29,505 nucleotides of DNA from IMG/VR virus record IMGVR_UViG_3300036715_001606, positions 1 to 29,505 of that record. One strand, given 5' to 3'. This DNA comes from a virus. Positions within the stretch are counted from its first letter, which is position 1. Each line of letters opens with the position of its first letter. Shown here one piece after another: positions 1 through 29,505 of this stretch. The translations under genes were made by a program, and so were the position numbers. Below the pieces are notes generated by a model. It ran no database searches. It was not told the DNA's origin and was given only the letters and a program-made list of their open reading frames with translations.

Positions 1-394
1 TGCCGATATTGGCGGTGACGGTGCCCGATACCGGAACCACGGCAGCGCGCAGTTGCGCGTCTGTGAGCGGCCCGGAAACGGGGACGGTAGCCGCGATGCT
101 GACGGGTTGGGTCGCTTGCCAGAACGTACCTGATACCGGCTGCGTGGCCTGCCAGAACGTACCCGATACCGGCTGAGTGGCCTGCCAGAAGGTGCCTGTG
201 ACCAGCTGCGACGATGGGAAGTTGTTGACGGCAAAGTTGCTTGGGAACCCGGAAACCGGAATTGGGGTGGCCCGCATCTGCGCGTCAGTGGCCGGGCCGG
301 AAACCGGAACCGGACTTTGGTCAGACGCAATGACGACAGGCCCACTGTTCGCCATCGTTGCTTGACCGTTCGGATTGCGCGGACTGTATGCCAT
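1..394 (-). CDS. Repeat-containing phage structural protein, partial (C-terminus beyond left edge)
   Basis: An open frame reads from ATG at 394 to the left edge without a stop (131 codons visible). It begins MAYSPRNPNGQATMANSGPV and is followed by VVIASDQSPVPVSG. The rest is built of short beta-prone motifs, PVSG and an 11-residue unit GTFWQATQPVS that occurs three times in a row. Such proteins are seen in tailed-phage structural operons near tail or head-fibre genes; an adhesive or fibre role is inference. The start overlaps the stop of the upstream gene (TAATG), so it is probably translationally coupled to it. Total length and the C-terminal domain are unknown because the gene is cut by the window. 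Confidence 0.75.
   Translation of the reverse strand, partial: MAYSPRNPNGQATMANSGPVVIASDQSPVPVSGPATDAQMRATPIPVSGFPSNFAVNNFPSSQLVTGTFWQATQPVSGTFWQATQPVSGTFWQATQPVSIAATVPVSGPLTDAQLRAAVVPVSGTVTANIG
117..215. repeat. Tandem 33-bp repeats encoding the GTFWQATQPVS motif
   Basis: Two near-identical 33-bp units (117-149 and 150-182) are followed by a degenerate third (about 183-215). They lie inside the partial structural gene, keep its frame and encode 11-residue repeats, so they look like in-frame protein repeats rather than a DNA signal. The unit length allows copy number to change by slippage or recombination without a frameshift. Confidence 0.85.
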
Positions 395-26357: not shown

Positions 26358-26669
26358 TTATTCCTCTTTCGGCGGAGTGACGGCTGATTTAATGGTACCC
26401 AGAGCGTCGTTCTGAGCGTGGAGAATTGCTTTGGACTGCTTCTGGTTGCTCAAGCTCCGCGCCTGCATGGCAATCATTACCGCCACACCTAGCCCAACAA
26501 TCGGCTCTATCAGGCCCTTGAGGCCGGACAGGATCAGTTGGAGGTCGGCAAAGAAGCGATTGATGATATCAGCATCGTGCGCAGCACCGGATGGCGCGGC
26601 ATTGACCGCAACGCTGATGAGCACCAGCAGGATCATCAGAATGATAACAGTGACCAGTTTCTTGTTCAT
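26358..26669 (-). CDS. Two-span membrane protein, candidate holin
   Basis: 103 residues from the ATG at 26669, after AGGA; a longer frame lies in the amidase gene. Hydrophobic segment 1 is about 4-23 (LVTVIILMILLVLISVAVNA), which could also be a signal sequence cleaved after VNAA. Segment 2 is about 48-67 (IEPIVGLGVAVMIAMQARSL), then a charged tail ending PPKEE. Next to an endolysin and spanin-like genes, a holin that releases the endolysin is the natural guess. It overlaps the amidase stop by ATGA. Confidence 0.55.
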   Translation of the reverse strand: MNKKLVTVIILMILLVLISVAVNAAPSGAAHDADIINRFFADLQLILSGLKGLIEPIVGLGVAVMIAMQARSLSNQKQSKAILHAQNDALGTIKSAVTPPKEE

Positions 26670-27136
26670 GCGGGGATTCCTGTAATGTGTTCGCGGGCCA
26701 GCCATTCACGCACATCGAAGCACGGACATTGCTTCATCCATTCATTGGGCGTGATCTTGCCATCGTGGTTGAGGTCAGGCGACAGGTCGCGGTGGCCGAC
26801 GATCTTTCCGATAGCGTACTTCTCGGTCAGCCGGTTCACCAGAGTCTTCAACGTCGCCCACTGCGCCGGAGTGAATGTGTCCTTCGCCGCGCGAGCGTGG
26901 TCAAGACCGCCGACCATGCAGATGCCGAGGCTGTGCGCGTTGTAGCCTTCGGCGTGGGCGCCGATCACATCATCAGCGCGGCCCTTCTCAACGCTGCCGT
27001 CGAGCCGTATGACGTAGTGGTAGCCGATGTCAGCAAAGCCACGCGCAAGATGCATCACGCGCAATTCCTTCGCGCCGATGTCCAGTCCTTCTGGCGTGGC
27101 TGAGCAGTGAATGACGAGCAGGTTGATCTCTCTCAT
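26666..27136 (-). CDS. N-acetylmuramoyl-L-alanine amidase endolysin with EF-hand-like loop
   Basis: 156 residues. Amidase_2/T7-lysozyme fold cutting the amide between MurNAc and L-alanine in peptidoglycan. Zinc ligands are His10 (LLVIHCSATP), His115 (KIVGHRDLSP) and a Cys at 137 or 139 (QCPCFDV). Other family signs are GFADIGYHYVI and the NAHSLGICMVGG stretch. Between His115 and the Cys ligand lies DLNHDGKITPNE (121-132), a textbook DxNxDGxIxxxE calcium loop. No signal peptide, so a holin is needed. ATG at 27136 after GGGGGGA; overlaps on both sides by 4 nt. Confidence 0.9.
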   Translation of the reverse strand: MREINLLVIHCSATPEGLDIGAKELRVMHLARGFADIGYHYVIRLDGSVEKGRADDVIGAHAEGYNAHSLGICMVGGLDHARAAKDTFTPAQWATLKTLVNRLTEKYAIGKIVGHRDLSPDLNHDGKITPNEWMKQCPCFDVREWLAREHITGIPA

Positions 27137-27366
27137 TTCTGAATCCCCCCTATATGAATAAGACCTTTGATTGCGGCGTAGCAGATGCCGGTTGCAATGG
27201 CGATCTTCGACATGAGGAACACGAAGGCGATCATCGTCTTGGCCGACTGCCATGCCTCAACAAGGTCGAGCGTTGCTGACGTGTTCATCGCCAGTTGCCT
27301 GCTGAGTTCCTTCATGTCCTGCTCAAGCAGTACAAGGCGTGTGTGGTCTGACTCTTGCTGGTTCAT
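27133..27366 (-). CDS. Coiled-coil plus membrane helix protein, possible holin-associated (XhlA-like topology)
   Basis: 77 residues from the ATG at 27366, chosen because AAGGA is 6 nt upstream; the ATG at 27372 abuts it directly. N-terminal amphipathic helix (HTRLVLLEQDMKELSRQLAM) followed by a C-terminal membrane helix (AFVFLMSKIAIATGICYAAI, about 46-66), the same topology as XhlA-type lysis proteins. Overlaps the amidase start. A holin or antiholin role is inference. Confidence 0.55.
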   Translation of the reverse strand: MNQQESDHTRLVLLEQDMKELSRQLAMNTSATLDLVEAWQSAKTMIAFVFLMSKIAIATGICYAAIKGLIHIGGIQK

Positions 27367-27805: not shown

Positions 27806-29505
27806 TCATGGCTTATAGGTGTTATGGGTGAGGATGAACGCATCGGCACGCTCACCGGCGAAGTAACTACCACCGCCAATACTGATGCGATTGACTGGGC
27901 GCATTCCGGCATCTTCGATCTTGACCACAGTTTCCAAATCAGTAGTGCCACCGCGCAGCACAACAACTTCCTTCCAAAGCATTTCGCTGAGCATGACACT
28001 GGAGCCGTCCATCAGGGTCATTGGCGTGGACTCGCTGGCGACGACAGCGGCCCCGAATTCCGTCACCAAGCGTAGGCATGGTTCGATGGAAATCTTTGAA
28101 CCTTCAACCATGCGCCCAAAAGTCTTGAACGTATGATGATCGAATGCTGTGATGTTGTCACCAGCTTGGATAAGACCTGCAGATCCACACTCCGGCATCT
28201 GCTGTGTGATTTCAACGCATCCGCCGCCGCCGGAGCCGCCGCCGCCCGAACCAGTGCCGGATGCGGGTACAGTCACCGTCACTTGACCAACCCACACAAC
28301 GGATTCAGTTGTTGCGAGCTGGTTCGGGTCTGTTGTGATGTTCAGGGTCTTGCTACCACCTGTCCAGACAGGGTCTAGGTAATAGAGGAAATACGTTATA
28401 GCGGTTGAGCGTGCTTGGTTGACGGTGCCGCTGGATGAGTTGTAGGCGATCAGCGCCTCACCAGTTCCCATTTGCAACGTGGACGCGGTAACGCTGATAG
28501 TAACGACGGACGGCGTTGCTGTGCTGTAGCTGGAAGTGATTGCCAAGCTATTGTCCCATCGGCTCGTCAGACTCGCCGCGTTGATCGGCGGGAGATTCAC
28601 TTGGCTGTTCATTTGCTGGTAAGAGAACATGTCGTCAATCAGCACATCCATGAACGTCTGTGCAGCAGTCACCGTCAATGCGCCACCGGAAGTATTCGCA
28701 ACCGCCATATTGATGAAGAATTTAGCCTTGGTCGCTGATGTCGGTACGGCGCTTATGCCGGCCACCTGAACAAAGCTGCCGCCAACCGGAGTTGCTGTGC
28801 TCCATGAGTCGGAACTAACAGGCACATCATTCTCTTGGTAATACTGGATGCCGATGCTCATCGTTGCGGTGAGACCGGCATGAGTGTAGGTGCCAGCACT
28901 CCACTTCACCATTCCACCGAATTGAATGATGCCGCCAAGTACGACAGGGATCAGTGAGGAAGACATCACCTGCATAGAACTGTTGCCTGTCGGGATCACC
29001 ACGCCGGCAGTGATCAGCATTTCAAGTCCTTGCTGTCCGCCGTTGAACTTGCCAGCGGCTGTCATCAGCTTTACTTGGTAAGTTGAGTCACTAATCATCA
29101 CGCGCCAGTTGTCGCACAGCGGCAAGTTAGCAGCAATCGCGCTACCGACAGGCGCACCAACCCGATTGGACTCGAAGCCTGGATTGAGAATCAGGTTGTG
29201 CCCTTCGGACGGGATGAATACCTTGCCAGTGCTGCTTAGGATGGAAGTGTATGCAGACCAGCCAGCAGAGACGAGAACGCCGCGTGCTCTTGCGCGATAC
29301 CAGTATGTTTCGCCTGTTGCGAAATGGTGGACGTAACCTGTGCCGGTCGGCCCGACTTGGGCGAGCACGGTGTAGGTGCCGCCACTGGTCGTCGAGTATT
29401 CGATTGAGGTGCAACCGACTGATGCAGGGTTCTGGTTCGTCCAAGTAATATTGACGCCATCCGCCACGGCAGTCACCGCAAAGTTATTCGGAGTCAGCGG
29501 AACAT
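27806..29505 (-). CDS. Large tail fibre/tip protein with FN3, jelly-roll-like and C-terminal Hint domains (5' end beyond right edge)
   Basis: At least 565 residues; the frame is open to the right edge. Numbering from the first visible codon: an FN3-like domain (1-90, NFAVTAVADGVNITWTN), then NLILNPGFESN opening a CBM4/9-like jelly roll (about 100-290), a beta region with TYFLYYLDPVWTGG (about 370), a poly-Gly linker and, from Cys429, a ~133-residue Hint-type domain ending ILTHN, with four residues (TYKP) after it. Such modules belong to receptor-binding or tip proteins of siphophages. The Hint domain may self-cleave at Gly-Cys. The upstream part probably contains the virion-attachment region. 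Confidence 0.78.
   Translation of the reverse strand, partial: VPLTPNNFAVTAVADGVNITWTNQNPASVGCTSIEYSTTSGGTYTVLAQVGPTGTGYVHHFATGETYWYRARARGVLVSAGWSAYTSILSSTGKVFIPSEGHNLILNPGFESNRVGAPVGSAIAANLPLCDNWRVMISDSTYQVKLMTAAGKFNGGQQGLEMLITAGVVIPTGNSSMQVMSSSLIPVVLGGIIQFGGMVKWSAGTYTHAGLTATMSIGIQYYQENDVPVSSDSWSTATPVGGSFVQVAGISAVPTSATKAKFFINMAVANTSGGALTVTAAQTFMDVLIDDMFSYQQMNSQVNLPPINAASLTSRWDNSLAITSSYSTATPSVVTISVTASTLQMGTGEALIAYNSSSGTVNQARSTAITYFLYYLDPVWTGGSKTLNITTDPNQLATTESVVWVGQVTVTVPASGTGSGGGGSGGGGCVEITQQMPECGSAGLIQAGDNITAFDHHTFKTFGRMVEGSKISIEPCLRLVTEFGAAVVASESTPMTLMDGSSVMLSEMLWKEVVVLRGGTTDLETVVKIEDAGMRPVNRISIGGGSYFAGERADAFILTHNTYKP
27821..28219 (-). other. Hint (intein/hedgehog-like) domain in the tail fibre
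   Basis: Starts at Cys directly after GSGGGGSGGGG and ends at His-Asn. Block A-like: CVEITQQMPECG, then LIQAGDNITAFD (the I-x-x-GDxV pattern). Block B-like: LRLVTEFGAAVVASESTP then MDG, with Thr where the usual His stands. Block F/G-like: TVVKIEDAGMRPVNRIS, then SYFAG and FILTHN. The order and strand pattern fit the family; the missing His raises doubt about activity. Confidence 0.7.

Follow-up and report, generated by a model that had tools for sequence, protein, structure and literature searches.

The gene at the end of the window raises two linked questions: what kind of domain closes the protein that it encodes, and what such a domain could do at the tip of a phage fibre. The window is a whole virus contig, IMGVR_UViG_3300036715_001606, of 29,505 bases. 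Our answer to the first question is a Hint (Hedgehog/intein) domain. For the second, we consider it probable, if only slightly so, that a single-turnover Hint autoprocessing domain, working by the logic of type A bacterial intein-like (BIL) domains, closes the C-terminus of the tail fibre.

The fibre-like protein and its Hint fold

The features of the locus are collected in Table 1. Across its junctions the domain reads GSGGGGSGGGG-CVEIT...ASESTPMTL...ILTHN-TYKP-stop, and the range first drawn for it, 27821-28219, runs exactly from Cys429 to Asn561, with TYKP outside it at 27809-27820. The name tail fibre, which came with the original prediction, is a probable one that leans on the homologues, several of which are encoded in tail gene clusters and some of which carry tail or fibre PHROGs, whereas the window protein outside the Hint domain gave no database match of its own. 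The downstream gene, P0010, was considered as a conserved partner and dropped, as the next gene varies between phages; in a BLASTP comparison P0010 had no real similarity to the protein encoded downstream in Microbulbifer. An amidase endolysin (phrog_822) is encoded near the fibre gene, at 26666-27142 on the minus strand.

Table 1. Coordinates in the window of the fibre gene, its C-terminal domain and the gene downstream
Feature	Position	Strand	Basis
Tail-fibre-like protein, 565 aa; 5' end cut by the record edge	27806..29503	-	ORF
Gly/Ser-rich linker ASGTGSGGGGSGGGG, directly ahead of the Hint domain	28220..28264	-	ORF translation
Hint domain and C-terminal tail, residues 429-565 (137 residues)	27809..28219	-	AlphaFold, structural alignment, profile
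Cys429, equivalent of intein Cys1 and Hedgehog Cys258	28217..28219	-	22/22; structural alignment
Block B equivalent, Ser490-Glu-Ser-Thr493-Pro	28022..28036	-	Alignment to gp41-1 intein
His560-Asn561, block G penultimate His and terminal Asn	27821..27826	-	22/22
C-terminal tail TYKP, with the single tail Lys	27809..27820	-	ORF translation
P0010, next gene downstream, about 139 aa	27376..27795	-	ORF

The Hint fold of residues 429-565, as modelled, is as good as certain because profile matches, an AlphaFold model and structural alignments all point to it. The model of the domain is confident (mean pLDDT 89.1, pTM 0.86), and its fifty best structure matches in the PDB are all inteins, BIL or Hedgehog domains. 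Structural alignment gave Z scores of 19.1 with the NpuDnaB intein, 17.8 with Hedgehog, 17.8 with gp41-1 and 17.1 with BIL2. Model positions 4..136 (Cys429 to Asn561) align with residues 1..440 of a RecA intein and positions 4..137 with residues 258..401 of Hedgehog, and Cys429 superposes on intein Cys1 and Asn561 on the last Asn of the intein. The fold thus spans the whole domain, which in 22/22 members starts with the N-terminal Cys nucleophile of the Hint superfamily. Scans of the window sequence against Pfam, PHROGs and NCBIfam returned noise only, with no match to a Hint or BIL model, and a single-sequence phmmer search of the PDB found nothing; a profile was needed. A profile built from six to twelve family members had only Hint proteins among its PDB matches: the gp41-1 intein (E 0.001 and 0.002), the BIL 2lwy, and the KlbA, CDC21-1, DnaB and VMA inteins, with E 0.025 for the BIL 2lwy against 0.002 for gp41-1. 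The original prediction had proposed a Hint fold at the C-terminus of a fibre-like protein; structure prediction, with a match over the full length of the domain, bears out the fold, and the sequences of the family support the placement.

Relatives, fibre stems and degenerate copies

The relatives are about 27-38% identical overall, and 32-40% in the tblastn matches, which close fibre or tail proteins of several phages: LucasX, PhiXhv-12/15/16 and XacN1 of Xanthomonas, Ep032 of Erwinia and DLP_6 of Stenotrophomonas. Another comes from Microbulbifer, on a plasmid with phage tail genes, and more copies were found in IMG/VR. Among bacterial genomes there were copies in 6/396 Sphingomonadales and matches in 5/390 of the order of Microbulbifer, one of them (G585) a weak intein-like fragment only. 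The Burkholderiales sample gave no real match (0/399), the class of Burkholderiales gave intein-like fragments only (2/369), and the Alphaproteobacteria sample gave one intein-like fragment in 385 and no real match; these last three thin samples show rarity, not absence. Pattern matches at six loci (L014, L015, L017, L019-L021) are due to chance and do not match the family profile, and weak genome matches at four others (L037, L049-L051) look like pieces of ordinary inteins.

Several individual genomes merit mention. Microbulbifer variabilis (G003; L013, L024-L029, L045-L048) has ten Hint matches spread over several contigs, some of them broken or truncated. DLP_6 has an unannotated frame for a 550-aa Hint protein that runs off the start of the record (L006:3-1655), and a second Hint copy ends a gene labelled 'VlrC'. 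XacN1 and LucasX (L005, L003) each encode a Hint-tipped protein of this family, despite papers on both phages describing tail fibres as not visible by electron microscopy (PMC5852040, PMC9009655).

The Hint domain is joined to unrelated fibre scaffolds, nearly always at the extreme C-terminus. The stems include a jumbo-phage protein of phrog_11610 and a DUF4815/PKD protein of 1825 residues; in Microbulbifer they are J-like tail proteins, and in Sphingomonadales other large proteins. In many homologues poly-Gly precedes the Cys. When window positions 27809-28399 are compared with the closest relative (L002:1-591), nucleotide identity changes abruptly close to the Gly-Cys junction: the 180 bases ahead of the Cys codon are 98.9% identical, the first 45 codons of the Hint domain 74% and the remaining ones 93.5%. 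Based on this pattern, the Hint domain appears to have been exchanged as a unit from near that junction. One member departs from the common layout: the Sphingomonas aracearum protein (L018:5520-8000) is the only one with a long part, 114 aa, after His-Asn, and a search of phage records and of 51 genomes from its genus gave no relatives of this part.

Some copies are free-standing or truncated. A free-standing Hint gene lies right after the Hint fibre gene in PhiXhv-12 (L004:6423-6842) and Ep032 (L007:6372-6839), and its product retains none of Cys1, the block B Thr and His-Asn. This makes a useful contrast, in that the catalytic residues persist in Hint domains at the end of a fibre and have gone from the one that is not. 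Truncated fragments in the order of Microbulbifer (L040:1426-1662 in G586 and L044:1498-1659 in G412) have THK in place of THN.

We found no description of Hint domains at phage fibre ends in the open-access papers searched. As far as we searched, the family is new to family libraries and to the open literature, and represents a known kind of domain, Hint, in a previously undescribed place.

The altered active site and a putative autoprocessing reaction

Alignment of 22 members defines an active site that is both conserved and unusual. Seven columns are invariant (model numbering): Cys1, a Gly before block B (with one gap), the block B Pro, Val112, Gly125, His135 and Asn136. The probability that Cys1, His and Asn would all fall among the seven by chance is about 8e-5. 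A dN/dS of 0.15 for the Hint domain, from the window and its closest relative, points to purifying selection. This selection, together with the invariance of Cys1 and His-Asn across the 22 members, makes self-cleavage or ligation plausible, and the window domain is likely to be active, as judged from sequence. A point against is that the window copy has Gln and Leu in place of two otherwise conserved Trp residues.

The main doubt over autoprocessing is the missing block B His. In block B, S is found in 21/22, T in 20/22, A in 2/22, P in 22/22 and His in 0/22, such that S-x-x-T-P stands in place of the intein T-x-x-H in nearly all members. The original prediction had read the block B His as Thr, correctly: the window has S-E-S-T-P at this position. 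At the block F position, where many inteins have Asp, 15/22 members have K, R or H and the others a hydrophobic residue or Pro. The residue at -1 is Gly in half of the members and Trp in the Microbulbifer group. The +1 residue is G, T, A, I, V, K, N or Q, with Thr in 4/22 including the window, and splicing through a Thr(+1) nucleophile, a role that the original prediction had left open for the Thr after His-Asn, was rejected for the family as +1 is not conserved among the 22 members.

These features place the family near, and apart from, several known systems. Class 1 inteins such as gp41-1 (6qaz), NpuDnaB (4o1r) and Ssp DnaB M86 (6frh) share the fold (Z 17.8-19.1), superposable Cys1 and terminal Asn, the C-terminal His-Asn and a weak but specific profile match. 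In contrast to them, the family has neither block B T-x-x-H with its His nor a conserved +1 Cys, Ser or Thr, has no endonuclease, and in most members interrupts no extein. Type A BIL domains, of which one from Clostridium thermocellum has been solved (2lwy), have the Hint fold, Cys1 and His-Asn and no conserved +1 nucleophile, an anatomy found across the family, with a +1 Thr in the window copy. The family differs from them in having Thr or Ala for the block B His, always one Lys in the tail, and a position at the extreme C-terminus of phage fibres. It resembles type A BIL domains with a rebuilt active site.

The proposed reaction, the order of its steps and its role in fibre maturation are what we infer from this anatomy. 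Once the fibre chain has folded, Cys429 would attack the preceding Gly to form a thioester (an N-S acyl shift), aided by Ser490 and by some other group that takes over from the lost block B His and block F Asp. Water or an amine, the latter perhaps the tail Lys, would then resolve the thioester, leaving the fibre ending at the Gly-rich linker or joined to the amine. Finally, His560 would assist cyclisation of Asn561, detaching the short Lys-containing tail and freeing the Hint domain. The fibre tip would thereby be trimmed and the Hint cap released. The BIL pathway (Gly-Cys thioester, release by water or amine, Asn cyclisation) fits the anatomy of the domain. BIL domains without a +1 nucleophile mostly give cleaved products; in type A BILs, which end in His-Asn, attack on the thioester by an amine can also lead to joining of the flanks (PMC4031507; PMC7664689).

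Work on inteins counts against a reaction without the block B His, yet offers two ways around it. Two inteins without it were known in 2014, one a pseudogene and the other with a compensating Lys, the kind of replacement found in Tko CDC21-1 (PMC4031507). With Gly at -1, as in half of the members here, the Ssp DnaB intein cannot do without this His, although a bulky -1 residue can replace it (PMC6333167). By analogy, the Trp(-1) of the Microbulbifer group would fit the bulky -1 route, and the basic block F residue or the tail Lys may act as the compensating Lys does in Tko CDC21-1.

The loss of the block B His in 22/22 members and the replacement of the block F Asp could also mean that the chemistry is gone. 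The domain would then be a structural relic, an unreactive, intein-derived module retained as a folding cap, a trimerisation aid or a receptor-binding tip. We regard this as unlikely, though it deserves more weight than any other alternative. A free-standing, degenerate Hint domain has indeed been retained beside the fibre gene in PhiXhv and Ep032. However, a relic does not readily account for Cys1 and His-Asn being invariant in 22 sequences, although they are lost in the free-standing copy, or for the single Lys retained in every tail. Autoprocessing is further favoured by the extreme C-terminal site, often after poly-Gly, as expected of a self-releasing tip, and by the loss of catalytic residues from free-standing or truncated copies.

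The single tail lysine and the meaning of a proposed Hint cap

Nearly all members have 4-8 residues after His-Asn. When members were reduced to lineages under 50% identical, and the first six residues of one long tail were used, exactly one Lys was present per tail in 12/12 divergent lineages, at +1 to +7, and none of the other residues occurred in >6/12 tails. The original prediction had overlooked this Lys. When tail letters were shuffled among tails, Lys was present in every tail in 16/200,000 trials, and Lys is found in the last 3-8 residues of 12-24% of other long frames from the same loci; as the tail lineages are related, both figures are guides. The shifting position of the Lys argues for selection for having a Lys and not for an inherited fixed residue.

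The tail Lys is a plausible candidate acceptor because the Hint domain of Tetrahymena BUBL1 BIL2 passes its thioester to a Lys side chain, forming an isopeptide bond between ubiquitin-like domains (PMC8616854). BIL2 (6y75, 6tmm) has the same fold (Z 17.1), Cys1 and terminal Asn, and uses a Lys acceptor where the family always has a Lys downstream; it differs in keeping the catalytic His69, in using zinc and in its ubiquitin-like flanks. In an extension of this idea, the fibre Gly thioester would be passed to the epsilon-amine of the tail Lys on the same or a neighbouring chain of the trimer, and Asn cyclisation would then free the Hint domain, leaving a fibre tip that is sealed or cross-linked. 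We think this rather improbable, and somewhat more so than a relic. One Lys per tail in 12 lineages, in a tail that is otherwise variable, the known BIL2 bond to Lys (PMC8616854) and its alignment with the model, and the lack of a conserved nucleophile at +1 all speak for it. Against it, the Lys does not sit at one fixed place, the AlphaFold model shows a disordered tail (pLDDT under 50), and the Lys could instead serve catalysis or binding.

The Hedgehog C-terminal autoprocessing domain (1at0) is also close in fold (Z 17.8) and C-terminal in position, and its Cys258 aligns with Cys429; it differs in having the block B His and in attaching cholesterol. Hedgehog lacks His-Asn. The Hedgehog-type Hog arrangement, a thioester without His-Asn, is not that of the family, in which His-Asn is invariant. 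By analogy with Hedgehog, a thioester that persists in the virion would react with a host-surface amine or hydroxyl, free the Hint cap and fix the fibre to the cell. The position at the fibre tip, the absence of a conserved partner gene downstream and the close structural match to Hedgehog are consistent with such a covalent adhesin; free thioesters hydrolyse, however, and His-Asn is invariant here, and we consider it very improbable. Equally improbable is that the domain is a true intein and splices the fibre to an extein on its C-terminal side. The 114 residues after His-Asn in the S. aracearum protein and the +1 Thr of the window speak for it; against it, every other full-length member has a C-extein of just 4-8 residues, and most lack Cys, Ser or Thr at +1.

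We return to autoprocessing as the reading that we prefer. Among the cases checked, the only self-cutting fibre caps known are of the intramolecular chaperone autoprocessing (ICA) type. The endosialidase-type ICA domain of phage tailspikes assists folding of the trimer, after which it removes itself by means of a Ser-Lys dyad (PMC3742443). The domain described here would parallel it as a C-terminal domain that cuts itself off a trimeric phage fibre, with a different fold and different chemistry. A Hint family with Cys1 and His-Asn and no block B His would test how the N-S acyl shift proceeds without that residue, and could yield new self-processing or isopeptide-forming tools. If the tail Lys does accept the thioester, these fibres would carry a built-in ligase, with an ATP-free isopeptide seal or cross-link at the tip, possibly between the chains of the trimer. 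If autoprocessing is true, the intein-derived cap would be an independent solution to fibre maturation, placed where the phage meets its host.
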